From NCBI GenBank assembly GCA_000467715.1, contig AJFK01000332.1, forward strand, positions 1 through 63,975: a stretch of DNA of 63,975 nt, in the 5' to 3' direction. The DNA comes from Hysterium pulicare CBS 123377 (Eukaryota > Ascomycota > Dothideomycetes > Hysteriales > Hysteriaceae). The first letter of the stretch is position 1, and every line of letters starts with the position of its first letter. Shown here one piece after another: positions 11,817 through 45,330 of this stretch. Below the pieces are notes generated by a model that was not told the DNA's origin, did no database searches, and saw nothing but the letters and a program-made list of their open reading frames with translations. Position numbers and translations under genes: made by a program.

Positions 11817-14150
11817 CTAATCCGCTTTGATAGCGCTGGAGTTAGGTCCGTTAGTCTCATACCATATGGAGAGGGATAGAAGCTTCAACATACCCGTATA
11901 TCCTCCTAACAAATGCATATGCAGACAAGAACCCAATCGTGCCCGTAAGCAGGCCATAAACGGCACAAGCCAAGAAGCCGTAGGAAAAGAACAGCATGCT
12001 GGATACGAAGCCAGTGATATGTAGCTTAGTGAAGTAATACCAAGCTAGGTAGCCAAAAATCCAGATGCTACTACTGCCGCCGATGATGAAAGATTGCCAC
12101 CACCAGTGATAGTTCTACAAGTGATTAGTTCCATGATTGACGGGGTGGGGATGATGAATGGACGTACCTCCGAGCACAATTGCACATAAGTAGCTACAAT
12201 CGTAACCTCAATTACCGTGACGACAAGAATAACACTCACGACAGCCAAAAATCCAAATACGTAGTAATACCCACTCTTGTCTTGCCACAAACTCTTGAAA
12301 ACGAACATCAATTCAATGAAGATAACAGCAAAAGGGATGAAGCCCGCAAGGAGAATGGTTTGAATACTCTTTGTGTACCATGATTGCACGGGAATCTGTC
12401 GGGGGATGACGTTGGCTTTGATGGGATGGTTCCAAGCTCCGACAATAACGAAACCATACCAACCACCGATATAGACTAACGGCAATTGAATAAGAAGCCA
12501 TAAGGCGAGAAGTCCGATAAGGGTACCAAACGGAATCGCGGTACTAGAAGCTTGAGCCCAGACGAAAAGGTTGAGTATGAACACAGTAGCGAATAGAAGT
12601 CCAGGAATTAGTGTTCCAGTCTACAATGCTGGTCAGCTCTACGTTCGAAGATGTAATAAAGAATGGTAACTTACCACAAGCACATTCTTCTGCCACAGCT
12701 GCCCGCCAAACGTCTTGTAGACGCGGGAGGAGAAATAGCCGGAGAATAGACCAGCAACGACGAACAAGCCCGTTCCCACACTCACATATCCACCTCGGAA
12801 ACTTGGGTTGAGGATACCGAGAGAGCTGAGAACCAAGAGGCCAGTGGCCATGAAGAGGAGTTGCATTCCGGAGCCGACAAGAGGAGCGAGCAGTCCACCG
12901 TATGAAGGGGCACGAAACACGTCGCCGTGTACCAACTTCCATCCAGTGATGTCTTCAATCGATTCCTCATCTGAGGAGATGTCGGCGTCGCCTTCGAGAT
13001 CCCCAAGCTGTTCCAAGAGACCACTGTTTTTTTCAGCACTCTTCCTCGGTGACTTCGTCCCCCTGCTCCTCTTCATCCTAGACTTGCTATCGTCTATTCC
13101 ACTCTCCTTGTATCCTTTGATATCGCCACGGATGGTACGAGCAAGAATGACGGCAACAACAGCGGTGAGAAGTCCGGAAATAATCAACGAGTTGACAATC
13201 GCGAGCCAGTGGATATTAGAGCTTTCGTCTTGTGCAACAAAGTACATATCCCAGCGATTTTGCCATGCCAAATGCTCTTCTTCGCGGAAGTAAACGGAGT
13301 ACGTGTATGGAATGGTGAGGATGTCATTTGCACTCTCCTCAACCTCGGATCCATCTGCATTCGTTGTATTGGGTTTGGCTAGAAGTTCCAAGCCGTTTTC
13401 GACGTTCTGGATATCAGCAGGTAGACCAGTCTCGTTGCGGTTACCAGCCTCAATGCTCTTCGGGAAGACCTCGAATCCGACAATGACCTTCTTTCCCATA
13501 CCCCCGTCTTTTCCTGGCGCTCGGTGATATCGAATGACCAAGGTGACATGGTTGTTGATGAAGTATCGAGGTTCCGCGTTCGGAGACTCGTAAACCTCGC
13601 CAATCTTGAATCCGGCCGCGTAATATTTGCGTGTCTTTTCCGTGTTGATGAAGCTGGTAGCCCCAGGAAGATTGTCCACAATCCACTCCGCAACATATTT
13701 GTCCTTTATGAGTTCCTTCGCTCTCTTCACGCCAGCCCTATCTACTGTGTGACTACAAAGATATCGGGCTTCTTCGTCATTTCCCATGACTAACTCATAA
13801 TCTGACACGGTAATTCGATCGCCGCGGAGGACCTCGCCCAGATTAAGTGACAAACTGGCTCCGCTCATGAAACGGCCAGTATGGGCTCGGCCGTTAGGGG
13901 GGCAAACGAAGGGTAGTTCGGAATAAGCATACTGCAGCTCGCTGTTATCGGAGTAGACTTTGTTCACGAAAAGCGGGATGGTCTCGCCGTCTCGATAGCT
14001 TTTGATGGAGAAACCTGAGAATGGAATGTCAGTATTTCTGTATTCCTTCAGAGTATAAGCGGATTGTCTGGCCATACCGGGGATATAAAATGCGTGCGAA
14101 AGTGCCAGGAAAGAGCAGAAGAGGGCACTTCTTCTCACGTCGGCGTGCAT
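11817..14150 (-). CDS. Transmembrane 9 superfamily (EMP70/TM9SF) protein
   Basis: Five exons on the minus strand: 14150-14078, 14014-12675, 12620-12168, 12114-11894 and 11835-11817 (701 codons), with introns of 53-63 bp. The product has a signal peptide ending before FYIPG, a long lumenal domain with GETIPLFVNK and LPFVCPP, then one membrane helix, a cytosolic loop with a basic and acidic linker, and about eight C-terminal helices. This is the EMP70/nonaspanin layout and the usual length. The 19-base last exon encodes G-A-I-K-A-D, giving the K-x-D tail that holds TM9SF proteins in the Golgi through COPI. The family works in endosome/Golgi sorting of membrane proteins. The first intron is a multiple of three, so unspliced RNA would still be open. 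The ATG at 14150 starts the signal peptide. Confidence 0.93.
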
Positions 14151-15593
14151 TGTGATAGGTGGGGACTGCGGAACGCGAATGATGCCGTGACGGGATTGCC
14201 CACGGAAAGGATCTGTGAGACGAAGAGATAAAGGAAGGCCAAGAAGCGAGGATCGGGGTCGAGGATAAGGTTGCAGAGGCAGACAGCACGAGTCAGACAC
14301 GGAGGCTGAGGCTGATGCTTGGTCCGAGAGGGTAGACCTGAGCTGAGGCTGGACAGACAACAAGGAAAAGCGAGTGTAATTGGCACAGAGTGCCTATATT
14401 CTAGCGCTGACAGGAAGAGGTGAAGTCAGATGGAGGGTGTTTGATCGAGGGCCAAGGAGGGTGTTGAGAAGGAAGATTCGGGCGGCCAAGGACCACGGCC
14501 GCTAAGCACCCCCGGCCCTCCTCCTGAACGGCTTATCTCGCCGCTATTCCCCATGCTGCACCGAGAATGGGTGCAATGCATTGCTGCCAAGGAGACGTTT
14601 GCTGGTAAGATTGTAAGCACCTGTCATCTTCGCCCAAACCTTCCGTCGCGGTTTAGTCATGCTTGTTCTGGCGGTTGAGTGGGTGCTGAGGCTTGAGGGT
14701 TACGCAACTCTCCAAACCCTCTCCAAATCCATACGAGCTCCACACAACTGCCTTGCGTCTTCCATGATGACTCGATATCGAATATGAGCCAAGCACCTTC
14801 ATCTATGGGATCCACTCATGCAATCGCTTTCAGCTGTCTGTCTTCCTCAGCAATCTGGGGAAAAGCCGGTCGGATATTATGGTTTGGACCTCGATAACCC
14901 CCAGCACACACAAATTGTATCGCCAAGCCAGAGGCAATAAACATGCAGATGCAGGCAACACCCAGCCGCTACTACATACATACATACATACATACATACA
15001 TGTAACCCAACCACACACACTTCTCCGTGGACTGCGCAACAATCCATGCGCTGATCAATTTGTATCTCCAGATTGATCTCCCATCTCGACCCCCCGACTT
15101 GCATCACACGGTCAAGCTCGCAAGCCCAACACTTAAGGCCAACAGCAGCTCGTTAAGAAGCTGCATTAGCGACGCCAACGATTGATCTCTCGTCTTACGT
15201 AGTGAGTGTCGAGTGAGACGAACACAATTCGCGCGACAAGCGACCACGAACACACGTCATTTGGCTTCATCCGAAAATTGTATGAAAGAAGCTATACGTC
15301 TCACTGCTAGAAAATTAGTCCCATAAAAAGGCCTGAGACGGGGTATCAAGATACAAGTAAGCCACATAATACACCACATTGTCCAAACACCATTACATAG
15401 ACCCTTGGGACTTGAAATCCCCTCCTATGCAGTCCCATCCATTAAGCCAAGTGACCATGCCTTCCCACTTTCTTGTTCATTTCTTGTTTCTATTTGAAGA
15501 TACATCGATGACGAAACTTCCTTGTTCCTCGCGCTTGGCTCGGACTGGCGATAGATGTCTTGATGATCAAGTTCCTCTTTCAATTCGAACGGT
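14151..15593. other. Intergenic region between TM9SF promoter and mosaic-gene 3' end
   Basis: It holds the promoter and leader of the minus-strand TM9SF gene on the left and the 3' flank of the mosaic gene on the right. Apart from the tetranucleotide repeat at 14973-15002, nothing was recognised. Confidence 0.45.
14973..15002. repeat. (CATA)n microsatellite
   Basis: About seven uninterrupted CATA units in non-coding DNA. Confidence 0.9.
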
Positions 15594-18500
15594 TTACTTG
15601 AGCTGCCATGCACGACTAGGTGACCGGACGTTAACTACTGTATCCATCGTCAAACGGAGGCAATAGTAGTGAAAACTTACGCGAGCCTATTTGGCGATGC
15701 TTTTGAAGATCTACTCTGCTTTCACAATCTTTCGAAAGTGATTCCGAGAATCCTTTGCAACAAAACTCCTCCTTGGTGTTTTGCTGCGGCCGGCTGTGCA
15801 CTGATTCCCAAAGCAGCGGCGGAAGTCCGCGCGGAAAGGTTTCGGACGCTTTGAGTTCGTTACATTCCCAATACATCTGTTCACCTAAGTGAAGGAGACG
15901 TTTAGAAAGCAAGCGCTCTTGAAGGGCCCATGGCCGACTACCCGAGACGAAGCCGTCAGCTACCTCATCGATTGTCGGCGTAGGATCAGCATGTTGTGAG
16001 CTTATGCCGCCAGAGGCAGACTCAGTCACAATTGTAAGGATCGCATTGCGGTACACGTGTGCCAGCTTCGCGGATTCCTTTTGTCTGTCCTCTTGTGAGT
16101 CCTGGACGATGCAGAGCGAATCGATCCAGAGGTAGCGAGTGCCGAGTTGCCGAGAGACGGACATCGCATCTGTGATTGCTTGGGGGAGATCTTTGCCTGG
16201 GATCACGTTCAGCATGCTTTGTAGACTCTCTGTTGTGAGTTTAGGGATCTCGTCTTTACCCCAACTCCAACTGAGAGCGATATAGTCAGTGGTTGAGGGT
16301 AGATCCAAAGTGGTAACAAGGCGGCTGTCAAATGATCCGTTCAAGCCAGCTTTAAGGTCGATGAGTCGGCTGGGAAGTAAAGTCATGTTGACTTTATGAG
16401 ATTGGCAGCCAGCATGCTCAGCAGAGCATTCCAGGAGCCAGAGCTTGGCTTGTTGGAGGGGATCGTTTGCTTGTTGAGAAAATTGATCCAAAAGATCGGC
16501 GAACCGATTGGCAGAGCAACCTTTGTGCACATCGAGTCTGTTTTCAAGAAGGCCATCAAGCTCCTCGTGGCTTGCGTTATCTGCAAAATGGTCAGACAAG
16601 CCACCAATGGCGATCTTGTCGTTTTGAGTTTGTCCAGTAACCCCGTTCTGTGAGTTGAGTAGGACTCCCGCCAATGCTTCCTTTTCCTCCAAGGGTCCTG
16701 GGAAGGATACGTTTTCGTTTGGCCAAGACTGACAGCAAGGCGCAGGCGTGAAAATCAGCGTCAAAACCTCCGCTTCGGGGCGCTTAGTAGGATCTGCGTT
16801 CAGCATTGTTTGAACAGTCTGAAGCACGACGCTCTCCCTTGGAGTGTTTGCCTGCTCCTGGAAGCTATGGAGCCATGAACACAAGCGGGGCACGTCCTCC
16901 CAGTAACTGGCCTTGCTGTACTCTTTCTGGAACTCCTTTGAATCGTGTCCAATAAGTACCATTTCTAGGAATACGCAGCCAAGCGACCAGATGTCAGCAG
17001 CTGACCCTCGTGACATGGACTCTGCGACTTCGGGGGCAGCATATTTGCGAGTCAGGGGTCCCGATCCCGAGCCTACTGGGCCATCTTCTGACATCTGAGA
17101 TATCCCGAAGTCAGTGAGGATGAGGTGGACTGATCCTTTTTCGCCTTGCTTGACAAGAATGTTCTGAGGTTTAATGTCCATGTGCTTGACAACTGGGCGT
17201 TGTTCGTGAAGATACCTGACCGCAGATGAGAGGCACCCAAAGAGTTTGAATATGCTCTCTTCAATCCCTTCGGGCTTTTTCGCCAGGCAATTGTCCAGCC
17301 AAACGGCCAAGGTAGTATCAGCCACGGGAGATAGAAGTATACTCATCTTCTCTCCACGCGAATACGCTCCAAGGAAACGAATAACGTGTGGGTGGCGAAG
17401 TTTCTGCAGAATTTGCATTTCTTTGTGGAGTTCATCCAGCGCAGACTTCTCGCGGTTCTTCAACGTCTTCCGGCATATTCTCAAGTTTGTTACACGGTCG
17501 ATGACTTCATCTACTGTAGAAAATCCACCTGTTCCAAGGAGCTTTACACTGAGGAATGATGGCGAACCACCAAGCAATGCGCATGAAGCCTGAAAGATTG
17601 CTATCTGCGAAGAAGATGTCGAAGTAGTTCGTCCTAAGGATGAGATCCACTTTAATCTCCCATCGTCTGTTGGAGAATGGACGGATGTGAGATAGCGTTT
17701 GAAGATGTCAGCACGACTGAAAAGCTTTTCGACCGTTGAGCCGGAGTTCAGACAAAAGGTGTCGACCGTGGTGCCTTTGTATTGGGTCCACGTATGTCTG
17801 CTCTGGTCATACTTTCGTGTAAACCCTTTGGGTTTATACTCGCACGAGCCAATGGGGCACTTCTCCGATCGCTGGGTTTGATGGGTAAGCATATGCGCCT
17901 TCATGTCCTTGATAATGCGTCCGCATTCTGGAATGGGGCAGAGAACTCTGCCATGAGATAAGTGTACCCGGTCCAGCGGTTGCCACCTAAAACCATCGAA
18001 GTTGGAATCTCCTTGAGTTCGAAGATATGGAGACTGGTCATCTGCTTTCCTTGATCCTTCACAGCTAGAGTCATTTTGTACATTTCCGAAGCGTTTCAGA
18101 TCATCTGAGCTTCTCGGATGTGTCAAGTCTCCGAAGAGATGAGTCGGGGTGATCCTTTCAGGATCACTATCCAAATGGCTTCCAGAGTTCTCTAGAGCCT
18201 CATAAGTAACTTCAAGAATTTGTCGCTGCTGAGGATCCAATGACATGGTTTTTGTACGAGATTTGCCGAAGAAATCTACGTCGAAGGCTTCAAATGTCTG
18301 TTTCGAAAAATAGTGGTGCATGGCTTTGGAGCCTGTCCCTTTCTCCTCTTTGGTGTTTCGGCTTGATCTCCCGCGATGCTCTTGGTTTTGGTCTTGTTCA
18401 TCGTACTTTGCTTGTCCGGATGATATGAATTCACAGAAAGCTTCTTTGTCGAAGCTCATAAGGTTTTGATTAAGACCAATGATGGCAATACGTGAGCCTC

Positions 18501-20158
18501 CTTGACCATTGTCATCATCTCCGCCATCACCATCCGAGGCAGGTCCAAAGTCAGGTCCTTGTGTACGCCTGTCGGATCCTTTGCTACCTGTGGGACTATC
18601 ATCCCCAGGTGTGTCGTCGTCAGGCTTGTCGTCATCCGGCTTATCGTCGTCATCATCGTCGAAGACATGGGTATCATTATCATTGTTCCAATCTAACATA
18701 CACTTGCCTTTGCGGAAATGGTCAGAAATGTGGTCAATACGCTCATTTCGGGAGGTAAAGCGCTTTGGGCAGAACCCGCAGCTCCTTGGGAACGCAGTAT
18801 CCAATTGGACCAGGCTGTCAGCTTCAAAATCTGCTGAAGAGAGGCCAGGATGGATATTGTTGAACTATATCTGATTAGCAGTTAATCATCCCTGAGAAGG
18901 CTCAAGACTCACATGTTGGGTGAAATGATATCTGCGATAACAAGGTCGAACTCGGTCCACTCCCGTACCTACACACAAGCTACATAGCCAGTGCTTTGCA
19001 GGATACCCTTCCTCTTCATTCCGTCTCCAGTCACACTTCTTTCCGTACCGTTTCCCACAGCCTCGCGTACACTGATATATCTTATTCTCATCCCTCTTTA
19101 ACAAATCACGGTTATTCGTCGGGGAACACGTCTTTTTCCCGGATTGCACCGCCCTCCTCGCAGACTTCCGGGTAGTGTTGGAGTTCATGCTCTGGTCTAT
19201 CGTAGGCCCATGACAGATCTCAGTCGTCTGGTTCTGCGGAGATGTTCGAGATTCCGCCATAGTTGACTGGGATTTGTACGCAGAGTCATGGCCAACCATT
19301 CCTTGCTTTAGCATCTGACCGAACCAGTGTCTGATTGCAATTGGTGAGGCTTTCGTAAGATGGCTTAAGGCATTGATGTCTTGATCGCTGGGCAACACTG
19401 CGTATCTCTTGCTAAACCAGGTCGCGCAGACATCAGCAGCATCCTCGTCGAGACCTATGTCAACTTCGAAGCTCTGAGAAGGGGATGTCTGAGGTGTCTC
19501 TCCAGACCACATTGAGTCGGATATAGCGGATGGCAAGGTTGATGCAAAAGGAGAATAGCCTTGATGATCAGCGATCACTTGACGTTTTGATTGGGGAAGA
19601 TCGCAAGTGCTATTTTGGATAGGCCTTTTGTGGGAGCTGCCAGATTGGTGGCTACAGTATGTTGGGGACACATCCAAGGTTGATGGAGGCACAAGACCAC
19701 CGAGACTATCTCCCGTGTAGGGGCTCAGGTTCTGGATTCATCAGCATAAGTCTTTGAGCAGAAAGGACCAAGCTTACTAGATCTTGTGGTGCAGAGAATA
19801 AATTCGGATCAATCAGTCCGAAAGAATCCATCGATGGCTGACAAGGTTGTTGCGCGTCTCCCATGACATGGAAACTGCTTTGGCGAGCAGTCGTCGGAAA
19901 AGAAAACGATGGATTGGCATCACTCTCTGTGGAAATTGCCTCATCATCCATGAAGTCTGCGAAGAAGCTTGAATCATAATTCGAATCGGTGGGCTTTGCT
20001 AATGCCTGATTATGCGCCGTAGAGTGGAAGCTGTTCTGATATTGGGATACTGCGGATGGAACATCGGCGGAATACCCGAAACTCGCTTCGTCCATTGGCA
20101 ACGCATAGTTCGCAAAGTCCGTCCCATCATACTCATTGCTTCGGAATTGAGAATCCAT
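15594..20158 (-). CDS. Mosaic homeodomain-C2H2-kinase-HET protein with ketosynthase-like pieces
   Basis: Exons on the minus strand: 20158-19778, 19731-18913, 18864-15681 and 15637-15594 (1,475 codons). If the last intron is kept, the frame ends at 15631 (1,477 codons). Order, in residues: Ser-rich N-terminus; homeodomain-like block with IRHWFGQ (about 200-240); C2H2-type fingers (about 330-460), one spanning the exon 2/3 join; Asp-rich linker; a ketosynthase-like piece (about 525-633) with LDPQQRQILEVTYEALEN; more Cys/His finger motifs (705-800); a full protein kinase (838-1110) with GTGGFS, catalytic HMDIKPQN and DFG; a second short ketosynthase-like piece (1150-1190); and a HET domain (about 1215-1400) with LWIDSLCIVQDS and WALQERLLS. 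The first part resembles a known fungal homeobox/C2H2 factor family. Kinase catalytic residues are intact, but the usual HRD is HMD. The ketosynthase pieces lack the active-site Cys. Location and partners are unknown. A HET pseudogene lies head to head with it. Confidence 0.75.
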
Positions 20159-21162
20159 ATTTGGAGGCACTGTGATAAAGATAGATGGGAGACTAGGACT
20201 GACCTCACCGTGCGAAGGCAGGCAGAAGATTCCTTGAGACTTGCCCTCAAGAGGTGTGAGTCAATGTAGAGGTTGGAGGAGATTCTACGGAGGATGTTAG
20301 CCCATCTGAATAATTGCAGCATTGCCTGTTTTTCAAGGCGTGGATTTGAGTCATACTACCTTCAGCCGCCCTTTCGCGAAGAAGGGCGCCGAAGGCAGAC
20401 GTAATAGACAGAATTGGTGAAACGATCACATTGACAGAATTGATAACGCAGTTTCCAGCAACTCTTCGTTCAATGGACTGTTCTACCACCATTTCGGCTT
20501 GTGGGCCGAGTATGTATATTCCAACAGTCTGTAGATCTAAGCTATAGCTTGATCACGCTCCATTCTTGCCAAAAGCACTGCATTACGTAATGCATCTCGC
20601 CAAATTTACCGCTGACTTTCAAACACAGAACCTCCCTACTCACGAAAGGGCTGTGTCTGCATACATCCTTAAACGACATGGCTCCCGCATGTCGTATCTG
20701 CAATATGGATCCTGCATTGGGACTTTACAAGGTTAGCTTCAGACCTGCCGATTCAACTTTTGAGGTGAAAAGAACTGCCCGTGTTGGCCATTTTAAATGT
20801 CTGTTGTAGGTTGTACGGCCGGATAGGCCGACATGACAGTAGGAGAGAGTTATCACAAAGTTGGGGGTGGAGGTGAAGTTCTTGCACTCAGGTTAAAGTT
20901 CCATCCTTTTTCATCCCAACTTCGACTCCCTCCTCGTAAGAACGCTTGCATAGATCCTATCTCGTCATCTGATCCTTCCAGTACGGAATATCTCCAAATA
21001 ACAGAGCAAACATATGGAAAAGCACTTGGAAACATGGAGTCGTCTTTTCGATCTCGCATTAAAATACACCGCCACAATGGCCTATGAGGCTGAGCAGTGC
21101 TGAAAGCTTGGTGGAAAACAACGCAGTCGCACGTTTTACTTTCATCCATCAATTCAAGTACA
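20159..21162. other. Divergent intergenic region between mosaic gene and HET pseudogene
   Basis: Shared upstream space of the minus-strand mosaic gene and the plus-strand HET pseudogene. Only short ORFs on both strands. No further exon of the mosaic gene could be joined in frame here. Confidence 0.45.
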
Positions 21163-22982
21163 ATGGAGCTATTTACTTCGAACCTATGTGACGATGGGCT
21201 CCAAAGTCATCTCTACCAAGATCTCGTCTTCCAAGACTCAATCAAACTCCTCGGGCTTCATCCTGGAACCGGCGATGACCCTATAAGCGTCAGTACCCGC
21301 ATGGCTCGGCTTGAAGGAGATTTTCCAAATTATGAAGCTCTGTCCTGTGTCTGGGGCTCACCATCAGATACGCACTCCCTTCAGTGCGGTAGCCAGACTC
21401 TTCGGGTCACGACGAATCTCTACAAAGCCTTGAGAAGACTCCGTAAGCCTAATGAGCGACGGATCGTATGGGTCGATGCTATCTGCATCAGCCAATGCAA
21501 TGTCCATGAACGGAACCACCAAGTAGGGTCATGCGAGAAATTTACAGTCGAGCTGAGAGGGGCCTAATATGGCTTGGTCCAGATCCAAATGAGAAAGCCA
21601 TCGAAGCTTTTTCACTTGTCTGCTGTCTCGTCAACAACTATGATCAGGAGATGCAATACCCCCGCCCGGCCCAGTTCCGCAGCAGTGCCTCATCTTCTTT
21701 GGAAACTAATACAGAAGAAGTGGTTCCAGATATAAATTCCCTCTGCTGGGAGTCTGTGAAGGCGCTCTTCGATAGTCCGTGGTTCACTCGCATTTGAGTC
21801 GTCCAAGAAGTTCTATTGTCTCAGTCCGCTATCGCAATATGGGGTGAAGCGGAAATAGACTATGTGTACATATCCCTCACCACTAGAAAACTATCTTGGA
21901 ATGTCGAACATTGGCAACGATTATGTACTTGGGGTGTCTGCATGGCTTTCGATATCCACCTCAACCGCCCAGATCGACAATCAAGGTCATCGCCTACCAA
22001 TTACGGGTTTCTATGGCTATTGGCCAGCTTTCGTTATTAGGAGGTTATAGATCCAAGGGACAAAATTTATGGATTGCTGGAAATTCTCGGATCGAGGCAC
22101 TGGGGCGAACTTGCTCTGCCTGAAATACTAATAGAACCGGACTATGGCCTTCCATGGTCGGAACTCTACACGACGGTTGCCAGGAGGATTATTACCCAAG
22201 AGCAAAGCCTCGATATATCGGGCCTTGCAACTCGTGTCCCTCCGTATCAAACGTACGATAACCTCCCATCTTGGGTTCCCGACTGGCGGCAGAGCAAAAG
22301 TGTAAGTAAGCTTGCCGGCTTCTACATTGGGGATGAGTTTAGTGTTGGTACAAAAAGGCATCTGGCGCTCAAAGACGTTGCCGATAACCGAATTCTGATA
22401 GCTTGTGGGCTGAAGCTCTTCACTATTTCCGAACATTGCATCTATCCTGTGTCCAACTCTCCTACCGACGTTGGCGCCTGCATCACCAAGTACTTTTCAC
22501 GCGGCGGCGGAGACCTTGGGTTGCTTTCTAAAACACTCACAGCCGGAAGAAACGATGCTGGTCGATGTATCACCTCTGAGTCTGGGCACTTATCCGATTT
22601 CGCAGCATATCTCCTCACACGTCCACCGTCAATCCTGCAATCGCTCCAGAACATCAACAAGGAAGAATTGGAGCGACGAGCAAAGACAGGGAATGGATTG
22701 AAAGAATATTACGAAGAGGCGCTGGAATACCACTTTAGATACCGGACGCTATTTTGGACGGAAAATGGAAAGATGGGATTAGGTCTAGAGACTATGAGGA
22801 AGGGTGACAAGGTCGTTGTGCTTTTCGGGAGTCAGGTCCCCTACGTTCTTCGACCTCATGATGGGTTCTACACTGTACTTGGGGCATGTTATGTGGATGG
22901 AATCATGTTTGGGGAGGTTTTCAAGGAAGGACAAGGTGGTGCTTCTCAGAAGTTTGAGGAAAAGTGGTTGGAAGTTCATTGA
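21163..22982 (+). pseudogene. HET domain protein, broken by one frameshift and two stops
   Basis: The frame opens at ATG 21163 and shows the HET domain: YEALSCVWGSP, then VWVDAICISQ and, after a break, MREIYSRAERGLIWLGPD. Between 21530 and 21531 the frame changes by one base, as if one base were lost just before MREIY. Downstream one frame runs to TGA 22980-22982 but holds TGA at 21795-21797, where W of the usual R-x-W-V-V-Q-E is expected, and TAG at 22038-22040 just before VIDPRDKIYGLL. The tail, GDKVVVLFGSQVPYVLR and CYVDGIMFGEV, is typical of the family. The breaks lie inside conserved motifs, so introns cannot explain them. Known HET proteins trigger programmed cell death on non-self recognition. 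This copy should be dead. Confidence 0.85.
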
Positions 22983-30248: not shown

Positions 30249-32298
30249 AGGAGTTGATAATAAGGGATTAGGCCGAATCTCCATAGTTCTGTAAGTACAG
30301 TTAGCTTGATATCTCTGCAAATCTAAAGTCGCCGATGTAAGGCCCCTGCGAAAGGAAGATTGGAAGTATTTGGCTTTCCACATGACTAGTACTGCCGCTT
30401 TCAAAGAGCAATCGACTGCTGTACTAATAGTGTAGAAGTACCTCTGATGACTGCCGATATCGCAATAGCCCGACTTCCTCAGCATCCGTCCACCACATTG
30501 TTGCATACCAAATGTTCTAATATCGGCGGGGCAGCTACCCGTCCAACTTTAGCTTGAGAACTTAGATATTGAAGCAGATTAGTATTGAGAGGTCTACAAT
30601 ATATCATGCGTATTAATTCCTTCTTAATAGAAATATCTAAGATTCTTCCCATTCAATATCATGGGTAAATCAAAAGGTATTCTAAATAGATTTGATAGGG
30701 ATTGGAAAGCCATTTGCGTCTCTTTGCTGAGCTCAAACGCGTTCCGCAGACCGCGGTAAACATATCTTTGGCAATATAGCTTAGACAGCGGGGCTCGGGG
30801 CCTGCGTAAGCTATTGTAGCCTCCAAGTATTTACAACTGTAGAACTATTGGTCTTGGGCTCTCTGCTGTTATAATGGCTTTGGTGTCAATCCGGGTGACC
30901 CTTCCGTATCAAGTACCTCCTCCTTCCAATTCCTAAACTTGGGTGTTATGTTGGGTCCTAACGCCGTGGGTACGGTCGAAAATATGTAGTCCTACGCTAC
31001 TGTACGGATCAGCATTGCAGAGAACCGTGGTTGTGAGATAGCATATAGAAGGTTGTAGTTAAAAGTGACCGTGGACGGGGAGTACCTTAGTATTTGCCTT
31101 GACGTACATAAAAGTCTATAATCTATGTCAATATAGATTTAGGGAGGATACTTTACAACCTGTAGAGCTGGACCGGGTTGCGTGACGTGAACTGTCTTCG
31201 GGAGGGCGCGTAGAGGTCAATTGTGATATGCTGGAACCTTGGGTCCTGAAGGCCTGGATTTATGCCCGCCACCATGATTAGTTTTTCAGTGCCGGTGTAA
31301 ATAGCTGAGAGACTTACCTAGTTTGGCGCGCTGAGTCTATGACAGATGGGGAAGATGAAGAGTAATCGGGAGCTACACATTTCCTCTGGTATAAGAATGC
31401 ATGCCCGCTCTCATCTAGATACTTAAAGAAGCTTATAGTCTTAGCTCAAGCCTGTTGTGAAGTCTTTCAGGGTCTCCATATCTTGCTTCTAGGCTCCAGT
31501 TGTATTTCTCATGTGGATCAGTAAGAAGAATAGGACCCTTTTTATTCATACCTAGTACATACAAACTAGAGTTATGCTTCGTGAATGTTTGGAGTTATGC
31601 TTACTCCTAGAAAGGTTCTTATGCTACCTCTGCACAGCTCAATTGAACTCGGTGAGAAGGCTTCAAAGTGAAAGCGTGCTTGATGTCCAACTTGATTTTA
31701 ACTTTAGATGATAACTTAGTTTAGGGCATATAAGAAAAAGAAAAAAATATAAATATAGTATATTAGTAATTAACATGTAGTTGTTTGTATGCAAAGGACT
31801 ATATGTACAGTCCGCTTTCGGATGCCAAACTTTCCTACGTGGAATTGAGAGACTACTCTTGACTATAATTAAAGCCACAGGCTTACAAATCTGTCACGAA
31901 TATTACTAGCAACTAACAAGCGTACGGGCTTCAGAACTATGAAGGTAGACTTCTTCAATGCTAATTCTATTCGACGACAGATGAGTGTTCTACTTGATTA
32001 CCACCCATGCCTTTACTAGGCAGGTAACCTCTGCCACAGCTCTGGCCAGTTTATCCCATACCAATACCTTCTTCGCCAGTTGTTTCCTGAGTCTTCGCAA
32101 AGACCCACACTTGTCATCCAGACTGAGAAGGTGCGCGATATTGCTGAGCTTCCTCTTCGACGATTTTACCATATGAGGCCCCAGGTTCCTAATTCAGAAC
32201 TGTTAGCCAGAAACCAGACAGCAACTCTTGCCCGACCGTCTGTCCGATATGCTCATATATCCATCATTTCATCGAAATATCCCTTAGATGGCACCGTC
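30249..32298. other. Gene-free, AT-rich stretch
   Basis: Two kilobases without a supported gene. ORFs are short and stops are dense in all frames, with TA-rich tracts (for example around 31680-31780). It may be an old mutated mobile element, but no transposase or reverse-transcriptase motif could be read. Confidence 0.45.
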
Positions 32299-42120: not shown

Positions 42121-43580
42121 AAAACGGACGGGTAATGGTTCTAGTGGAGCGTTTGAGCGCCGTTGGATTGAGAATATGAGATAAGATGAGATGATCTGGA
42201 GTTTCATGCATAGCCGCGGCGTTTTGAGGTTTACGTCCTTGGAGATGTTCCTTTCTAGTTCGTGAAGACATGCAACGACACTCGTGCCTTTAGGGCTCGA
42301 TGCGTTCACTGGGATCCACCACAACGTAGTAATCATAATTCGTAATTCTTCATCTCATTTAGAAATGCGGCGCAGTTTAACTCTAGGGATAACGTCGAGG
42401 AACTCTATCTATCTATTATCTAGTTCTCTATGGAGTAAAATATCATCTTATCATGTTATTAGATAGGGAAGTAAAGATGAGTCTTTCAGGTCTTAGCTAG
42501 AGTAAGTTAAGTTTGAGGGCATGAGTTATAGGCTTTTCACTAAGTCTAATTTCTCCTCCCAAACAAAAACTATTCAATCTACTAACGAAGATTGGAACAT
42601 CTTAACCTTTACACAGATGAAAATTAAAACATGGTAGGAGCCATGTCATGTAGGTATCGCACAAAGCAACATATTAGACATTCAATCACTGTTACAGGCC
42701 GGGCTTGCATATCTAGCCATAGATCCGTCAAACACTCCTATTCCGACATCAGAGACTAAGAAGCGCACACTAGGTATAAGCAAATGCAGAAAACTGGGCT
42801 ACATATCAACCTCGTAACTACTCCTCTTGCTCTTCCTATAGGTAAACTGTTTGATGTTGGTAATGTGACTCTACGAGAGTATATGGCTCTCAGCTGATGT
42901 CAAATTATCGCCCGCCTAGCCAGCTGTCATTGTACTTGCAGGGAAAATGAAAGCTCAACCTGCTAAATTACTTGTTGTTAAATCTACCAGTTCCCAGAAG
43001 CGGTTTCACGCTGTCACGTGCAGATAAGATATTTATCTACCTAGGTAGCTTGTTTACCACTCAGCACGCACCTTTACTTTCACAATCACCGCACACACTG
43101 ACTCAACTCAAGCGTTTCTGCCAGCGAAGTTGCAGTGTCCACCAAACTTGTCTGCTGATCTGCAATATTTCAATCAAACAAGCAGACAGGTTAGTGTCAA
43201 CCCTTTTTTACGTTAGGTGAAGCATCTCTACGAGCACACCTACCTAGGAGTTTTGAGATTGAGATATTGGTGGCAAACCGCCAACCACGAACAACGCCAA
43301 CCACCTCACCTTCTGCTAACCATTGCCATTCCAACGGCTGTTACAGCTGTTCGCAAAGCCCATCTCATTCCGTTGTACTGAGGTTGTTGTAAACGGCTAC
43401 GGCTATCCAGCTTCGCCTATAAGCATTCCAGCCAATCGAACACTCCCAGTACCTTCAAGGAAGTCTGCTCTGCTGGTCAAAGTGCCAACTTCACCACAAC
43501 TTGAGGCTTCATTCTTCGATTGCATTCTCTTACTCTTACCTTTTCTTCTTCTTACAAACGCCCTCAAATCAGAAGATAAA
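42121..43580. other. Intergenic region, AT-rich on the left
   Basis: The left 800 bases are AT-rich with dense stops and TAG/CTA-rich words. The right part is the presumed promoter and leader of the SRA gene; the frame of that gene is open upstream to 43323 but starts there at a non-ATG codon. Confidence 0.45.
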
Positions 43581-45330
43581 ATGGGTTACGAATTCGACGC
43601 CGAAATGGAGAAGCTTCGTGAAGAAGAGCGAGCTGGCTACGCAAAATACATGCAGTGGATGAAAGCTCAAGACCTAGCAAAGCAACAAGCACATGAGCGA
43701 GAATTGCGCGGTGAAGCACCCGTTCCTCGAACCCTCAATACTGAGATGGATCACCTCTCTGTAGATCCACGTCAATCTGACATCAAGCAGCGAAAGCGTC
43801 ATAGGAGCCCTTCTGCCGACTCTGTTATACCTGACGAGCATGAGGACGGAGAGCTTTTGAGGAGCCTAACAGAAATAGCTTCTCCGCACTCCAACGCCAA
43901 TACCGGGTCGCGAGTCACCAAGAAGCCAAGAGAGGGATCTCGTTTCGACATTCTCCCTTCAGAGTTTCGACTCTCTTCAGCTGCTCCTCAGCGTCCCTCT
44001 CGTCAGGGTAGCATCGCAACTGAGGCTCGTCCGCAAGAACAACAACGCGCCTCTCGCCCAGAGAGAAACGCATCAGAAGTCCGCCCACAGGAGTCTCGTC
44101 GAGCTTCTCGTCAAGAAGAACCACGCCGTGCGTCCCATCAAGACAATATCACCACTGTCGATGTAGTTCCAGCTCAAACGCAGCGCGCCTCTGAGGGACG
44201 CGTTTTACCAGAATGGTATACGAAAATGAACATTCTTGGCCACATGGCACAAGCATTGCTTCGGGACTCATCAGTTTCGGAAACCCAAACAACTTTATCT
44301 AGTTTCAAAGAATGCATGAAACGATGCCAGGAGACTCGGCGCGGTGTGGAACTTAAGGGTCTGTTCGACGAACTACGCATCAAACTTCATAGGCTCGAAT
44401 TCCGTGAGGTCAATGCGGCCATCGTCAAAAAGGCTCGCATGCTCGAGAACAAGATTGGTTTGCCTAAGATCTTCGATTTCAAATGCAGCGAAGGCGTGAA
44501 TTACCCGTGGGATGTGCGTGCCGACGCTGAACAGTTGTACAACCGCTGGGTACTTCAAGTCTTCTCCGTTGACCTTATGCGGGGTATTGTCATTGCAAAG
44601 GGAAAAGGAAAGGCGGCCAAGCGGAACGCAGATAGTATCGACAAGTCATTCATTGGCAGACAGTCTGCCAAATACTATGGGCAAGGTTACTTGGTCAATG
44701 GTCAATGGTGGCCAACTCAGCTCTGCACTGTCCGTGATGGTGCCCACGGTTCCGCTCAAGGTGGTATCTTCGGTGAGACAGGCAAAGGTTGTTATTCTAT
44801 TGTTCTGTCCGGTGGCAATCACTACGGCGATATCGATAACGGAAATGAAATTTGGTATCGGGGCACTGATTCTACTGACGAGAATCTCACAGAGGTATTT
44901 GCCGCATTCTAATTATCTGATTTTCGTACTGATTACTGACATCTATAAAGAATACAAAGCGTATGATGGAGACAGTCGAGACGCCGCAGAATGATCGCCA
45001 ACCCGTCAGGTATATTTGTTTCCTCTCCTCGTTCACCTGCTCAGGGAGACCGCTAACGCTTGCTTAAGGGTCATTCGCTCGTGGAACCTTAGCAAAGACC
45101 AAAACGTCTACCGCCCTGTCCGTGGCTTTCGCTACGATGGTCTATACGACGTCATCAGCTACAAGATTCTCGACGCTTCCAAAGCCATTCACAGCTTTCA
45201 ACTTATCCGCCGGCCGGGTCAAGACCCCATCCGCTACAGAGGCATGGAGGCTCGACCCACTCAGGAAGAAATTGACGCCTACGATGACCTGATAAAGTCG
45301 CAGCGGGGCGTTGGAAGCGACGCTTGGTGA
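43581..45330 (+). CDS. SRA (SAD/YDG) domain protein
   Basis: Exons 43581-44894, 44951-45009 and 45069-45330 (544 codons). The C-terminal SRA domain (about 357-530) has VRDGAHGSAQGGIFG, YSIVLSGG, YGDIDNG, WYRGTD, then R-x-x-R-V-I-R-S-W and YDGLYDV; exon 2 supplies the NTKRMMETVET stretch. SRA domains bind methylated or hemimethylated DNA in UHRF1 and plant SUVH proteins. Here no RING, PHD or SET domain is attached. The N-terminus starts with a charged coiled coil (MGYEFDAEMEKLREEERAG), then a Ser/Arg/Gln-rich segment with degenerate repeats of R-P-Q-E...R-A-S-R, then a helical region (about 215-300). Likely nuclear. It could read DNA methylation in a fungus with repeat-directed methylation, but that is inference. 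Confidence 0.85.

Follow-up and report, generated by a model that had tools for sequence, protein, structure and literature searches.

The window analysed here, meaning the whole stretch of 63,975 nt at positions 1 to 63,975 of contig AJFK01000332.1 (C259) from Hysterium pulicare CBS 123377, carries on its minus strand a gene in which a single frame joins a degenerate homeodomain-like and C2H2 part, an acidic linker, a ketosynthase (KS) fragment, a second C2H2 fragment, a protein kinase, and the leading portion of a HET protein. The host assembly is 37.2 Mb in 596 contigs. A first-pass annotation had described this locus as a single gene with short introns and an open exon of 3.2 kb, and its coordinates fit the four-exon model given here, which encodes a spliced protein of 1,475 aa. 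The joining of exons 1, 2, and 3 in one transcript is predicted from splice signals and frame only. The features of the gene are listed below, with residue numbers (aa) referring to the spliced protein.

15594..20158, minus strand: whole gene, with the ATG at 20158 and the stop at 15594 (splice signals, frame, and translation)
20158-19778, 19731-18913, 18864-15681, and 15637-15594, minus strand: exons of the four-exon model
19732..19777, minus strand: intron 1, 46 nt, GT-AG, phase 0
18865..18912, minus strand: intron 2, 48 nt, GT-AG, phase 0
15638..15680, minus strand: intron 3 (optional), 43 nt, GT-AG
19297..19431, minus strand: homeodomain-like block, approximately aa 228-272 (local profile, 7.8 bits, rank 1 of 1,002)
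18688..19080, minus strand: first C2H2 block, aa 345-459, spanning intron 2 (alignment; below the Pfam cut-off)
18505..18660, minus strand: acidic low-complexity stretch, aa 469-520, with a counterpart at the equivalent place in a relative on contig C63
18166..18492, minus strand: KS N-terminal fragment, aa 525-633 (PF00109, ketoacyl-synt, positions 3-110 of 252)
17677..18042, minus strand: second C2H2 block, a putatively captured transcription-factor fragment, aa 675-796, about 40 residues after the KS piece
16768..17547, minus strand: protein kinase domain, aa 840-1099 (Pfam Pkinase and catalytic motifs)
15817..16509, minus strand: HET module, aa 1186-1416 (WL..C..H..C segment, HET core at 16284-16006, and WALQERLL/YWEC block)

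Everything from finger 3 of the first C2H2 block through the acidic stretch, the KS piece, the transcription-factor fragment, the kinase, and the HET module is encoded in one unspliced frame, exon 3 lying inside an uninterrupted open frame of 1,077 codons. By our own arithmetic at a GC content of 0.49, the chance of an open run of this length is about 10^-23. Positions 15,000-21,000 are free of N. In codon usage, the reading frame is the best of the three in 11 out of 12 segments, the exception being a 95-nt stretch before the kinase; a codon bias restricted to synonymous choices was tried as an indicator and found uninformative, being too weak in this genome. As intron 3 is optional, the last 14 residues are uncertain; when it is retained, the stop falls at 15631 and the protein is 1,477 aa. 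On this evidence the predicted gene is considered to be real.

A Pfam scan of the spliced protein at E<=10 reported four families. The kinase that had been called complete in the first-pass annotation has a Pkinase match over the cut-off at aa 840-1099 (141.2 bits, E 5.2e-41), the related PK_Tyr_Ser-Thr family also being reported, and its glycine loop, beta-3 Lys, HMD, DFG, and APE motifs are present. The HET domain is also well over its cut-off (PF06985, aa 1261-1353, E 4.7e-22, 79.3 bits against 22.5), covering profile positions 1-91 of 146. The same scan did not support the homeobox and the C2H2 fingers, neither of which reached a cut-off, and it revealed the KS fragment, which had been missed, as had the separate origin of the second C2H2 block and the truncation of the HET module.

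All three HET blocks are present (YIALSW, LWIDSLC, WALQER). The third (R.W..QE) lies beyond the Pfam match, where SRPWALQERLL aligns with three HET open reading frames (ORFs) of the same genome, the one genome searched for relatives. The module is 35-37 % identical to these three ORFs, and the WL..C..H..C segment at its start is likewise found in ordinary HET ORFs. The HET domain with the WALQERLL signature, as claimed earlier, is present; the C-terminal part of ordinary HET proteins is absent. The module stops near FPRGLPP, and in the alignment to one ORF (L034) the last residue aligned is 250 of 534, so that approximately 284 residues are missing. No remnant of the tail was found downstream when 12 HET ORFs were compared by tblastn with window positions 12000-16300, none of the matches outside the module having an E value below 0.30.

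Of the 10 HET ORFs that were scanned, nine carry no domain besides HET and one combines HET with ankyrin repeats; a scan of 15 further kinase ORFs found no HET. Among the 150 HET and 133 kinase places listed, there is one case in which a kinase lies within 5 kb of a HET place and on its strand; with 150 out of 226 first-look candidates scored for HET and 121 out of 244 for kinases, this uniqueness holds for the listed places only. With 150 HET matches or more in its 37.2 Mb, the genome as a whole has a large HET repertoire. Separately, some of its kinases are coupled to tetratricopeptide repeats (TPR; L012 and L032) or ankyrin repeats (L024) and are candidate sensor-kinase fusions. Sensor-output fusions are thus usual in this genome, given these kinase couplings and that of HET with ankyrin.

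Ahead of the kinase, the KS fragment matches PF00109 with 37.4 bits (E 2.8e-9) against a cut-off of 20.8. When aa 521-664 were compared with PDB sequences, 49 distinct sequences were matched at E<=0.1 (best 8.9e-7), for the most part polyketide and fatty acid synthases, and 26 other places in the genome match the piece at E<=1, the best with 40 % identity over 79 residues. The DTACSSS stretch, marking the active-site Cys region in two synthases of the genome (L052 and L053), has no counterpart in the fragment, and no other polyketide synthase domain was found in the Pfam scan of the spliced protein.

The second C2H2 block matches a gene on contig C528 with 56 % identity over 131 residues and one on contig C18 with 55 % over 97. 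It comes from a separate transcription factor and is related, as a bait piece would be, to another protein of the same genome. Both relatives are full C2H2 proteins and share further sequence that is absent from the window gene. In 88 core columns of the three sequences, 52 residues are common to all, 15 are changed in the window gene only, one in C528 only, and 11 in C18 only, with nine columns in which all differ. By our own arithmetic, the relative-rate chi-square for 15 against 1 is 12.25. Three of the 15 window-only changes are at zinc ligands. Against C528, the nonsynonymous divergence (dN) is 0.17 and the synonymous divergence (dS) 1.94, the latter near saturation. These counts and rates point to fast change at conserved sites, yet with nonsynonymous below synonymous change and with the frame kept.

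The N-terminal part is much more weakly recognisable. There was no homeobox match in the Pfam scan of the spliced protein, and the 15 matches of PF05920 (Homeobox_KN) in the genome at E<=10 include none on the gene's contig. A local hidden Markov model was built from eight of the nine homeodomains of the genome that are over the cut-off, one being dropped for an internal stop. In a set of 1,002 sequences, of which 1,000 were shuffles, the window block ranked first with 7.8 bits and the C63 block second with 6.8, the best shuffle reaching 6.1. This is suggestive of a homeodomain kinship, although a very weak one that is not firm. By reading of the alignment, the recognition helix ends in WFGQML, whereas the homeodomains compared mostly have WF.N.R. 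A functional, DNA-binding homeodomain was rejected, there being no profile match and the rank evidence being weak.

No C2H2 finger of the spliced protein is over the Pfam cut-off, the best scoring 14.1 bits against 27. The triplet of the first block is recognisable by alignment with seven proteins of the genome, and finger 1 lacks both His, which are kept in seven out of seven of these relatives. By eye, three fingers retain their zinc ligands (fingers 2 and 3 in the first block, finger 1 in the second), and some have been lost from the remaining three. Both the homeodomain-like block and the C2H2 fingers of the first-pass annotation can be recognised, by a weak model and by alignment, but are degenerate. 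DNA binding is doubtful, because the homeodomain-like block is barely detectable, its helix reads WFGQML, finger 1 has lost its His residues, and three ligands of the second block are changed. The proposal that a kinase sits between DNA binding and HET holds for the kinase and HET, which one frame links, and is doubtful for the DNA binding.

Elsewhere in the genome, the N-terminal part is matched best on contig C63 (25 % identity over aa 244-453, E 2.3e-12), with a kinase 43 % identical to the window kinase on the same strand after it. The C63 gene consists of two adjacent open frames, at L041:898-2601 and L013:1387-2907, which lie 24 nt apart and presumably form one gene with a short intron. 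Its order is homeodomain-like block, C2H2 (PF00096, over the cut-off), acidic stretch, and kinase, and therefore this order is not peculiar to the window gene. Contig C63 is not among the listed HET places. The two kinases are mutual best BLAST matches among 20 other kinases, by 1-2 bits only. A kinase tree was tried as proof of the kinship with 20 of 21 kinase places of the genome (C70 had no locus and was left out), and was discarded, as it was unresolved and gave the window kinase no supported sister. Downstream of the C63 gene, the frame at L013:2918-3610 is Cys-rich.

The surroundings of the window gene are gene-rich and ordinary. In 20 further open frames scanned, EMP70, a heavy-metal P-type ATPase, GWT1, a class II tRNA synthetase, and a Ras-like GTPase were among those recognised, and no polyketide synthase was found. 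Upstream and divergent, the plus strand carries another HET gene at 21163-22982, whose frame changes near 21.5 kb and which has two in-frame stops; it looks like a decayed gene. A head-to-head pair resembling the sensor and helper pairs of plants was considered for these two genes and dropped on account of the frame change and stops. Repeat-induced point mutation (RIP) was also dropped as a cause of the changes, since both index thresholds are passed in just one of the 64 windows of 1 kb, and in none over the gene. That single RIP-positive window is 31001-32000 (TpA/ApT 1.22, substrate 1.00, GC 0.41). The open frame at 43320-44909 on the plus strand has a partial SAD/SRA domain (PF02182, 41.3 bits) at its end, an unusual neighbour for housekeeping genes.

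The first-pass annotation had proposed a signal-to-death or signal-to-transcription switch. As an observation its account is partly confirmed, and as an interpretation it is partly supported: the transcription half is weakened by the barely detectable homeodomain-like block, the lost His residues, and the changed ligands, and the signal-to-death half is kept, with the N-terminal parts possibly being sensing or bait modules, not DNA binders. The reading tentatively favoured here, for which the evidence falls somewhat short of an even balance, is that the gene encodes a mosaic HET protein with integrated domains, outside the NOD-like receptors (NLRs), in the manner of a sensor fused to a death or immune effector. 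Such a protein may be a sensor that carries baits and sets off a response of defence or cell death. A C63-like gene with homeodomain-like block, C2H2, and kinase would have gained two fragments before the kinase and, after it, a HET module. The N-terminal pieces would serve as protein surfaces resembling cellular targets (transcription factors and a polyketide synthase), and no longer mainly as DNA binders or enzyme parts, with the kinase a sensor of disturbance or a switch, and the C-terminal, TIR-like HET the output, starting a defence or death response once the molecule is modified or clustered. HET is described as TIR-related and sufficient for death in the available part of PMC10197012.

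Several points weigh against this. The protein lacks the repeat sensor, NACHT, and NB-ARC of the fungal NLRs for which decoys have been proposed, neither of the latter two being matched in the Pfam scan, and having no nucleotide-binding domain it would at most work like NLR-type receptors without being a member. The HET module is without the C-terminal part of ordinary HET proteins. Kinship of the kinase to that of C63 is weak, with near-tied BLAST scores and an unresolved tree, and, with dS near saturation, part of the divergence of the transcription-factor fragment may predate its capture. In Podospora anserina, only five out of 125 HET loci are known in allorecognition, as far as the available part of PMC10197012 goes. 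The bolder version, in which a multi-bait receptor outside the NLRs has degenerate homeodomain/C2H2, polyketide synthase, transcription-factor, and kinase pieces wired to HET and guards nucleus and secondary metabolism in one molecule, is distinctly doubtful.

The alternative that survives best, although itself somewhat unlikely, is a kinase-controlled HET switch without baits, close to the view of the first-pass annotation. Here the N-terminal part would place the protein in the nucleus or at chromatin, the kinase would phosphorylate itself or a partner and so release HET, and the KS and transcription-factor pieces would be mere linkers left by rearrangement. The presence of the kinase motifs, the C63 gene, which pairs the N-terminal block with a kinase without the inserts, and the TPR and ankyrin couplings (kinases, and one in 10 HET ORFs) are all in its favour, but it leaves unexplained an open frame over approximately 280 aa of two foreign fragments and, in the second of these, a dN well below dS. 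A chimeric gene of little or no function, formed when neighbouring fragments were fused by rearrangement and open because it is young or tolerated, would fit the lost zinc ligands, the truncated HET and KS, and the decayed HET gene adjoining; it is unlikely in view of 1,077 codons without a stop in pieces that have diverged to 25-56 % identity with their relatives, the kept core motifs of the kinase and HET, and the lack of a RIP signature across the gene. An artefact of gene model or assembly, with exons 1 and 2 being part of a different transcript or with unrelated sequences joined in the contig, is very improbable, for although intron 3 is optional and the homeodomain part very weak, finger 3 through HET lies in one unspliced frame, introns 1 and 2 are phase 0 and GT-AG, C63 has the same N-terminal order, and the region has no N.

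If the mosaic, baited reading is true, the idea of integrated decoys would no longer be limited to NLRs but would take in HET proteins that have no nucleotide-binding domain. A HET protein in which parts of other cellular proteins can be recognised offers candidate triggers. The HET family is described as one obvious gap among others in the knowledge of fungal immunity, most genes having no known role and few having assigned architectures (PMC10197012, part available). Even if the bait idea fails, the gene shows mosaic building, in which rapid change at the residues that had a function in the original protein goes with a frame that stays open. No protein with this domain order was found by searching the literature, a result that does not extend to fungal protein databases, and absence elsewhere is not claimed.

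Several known systems resemble parts of the gene. It is like the fungal HET-domain proteins (PF06985) in its YIALSW, LWIDSLC, and WALQER blocks and differs in having a truncated HET at the C-terminus, after a kinase. With type I polyketide synthases it shares the N-terminal stretch of the KS (PF00109) around the DPQQR motif, but as a fragment without the active-site Cys region or any other domain of these enzymes. Proteins with Homeobox_KN and C2H2 on contigs C557, C87, and C78 share the C2H2 triplet pattern and have a homeobox over the cut-off, which the window gene does not; in Colletotrichum it is common for a homeobox to be combined with two or three C2H2 fingers (PMC8406175, part available). 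The C63 gene is similar in the order of its parts, the C2H2 pattern, and a related kinase, and differs in lacking a listed HET, a KS piece, and any visible second C2H2 block, and in being 25 % identical in the N-terminal block. Compared with NLRs carrying integrated decoys, known in plants and proposed in the Sordariales, where zinc-finger and kinase domains are reported as putative decoys (PMC12258605, part available), the window gene is without a nucleotide-binding domain in the Pfam scan, and the role as bait is putative. A zinc finger in a Podospora NLR has likewise been suggested to be an integrated decoy (PMC5658179, part available), and the window gene resembles such receptors in joining an output domain to zinc-finger and kinase kin of proteins from its own genome.

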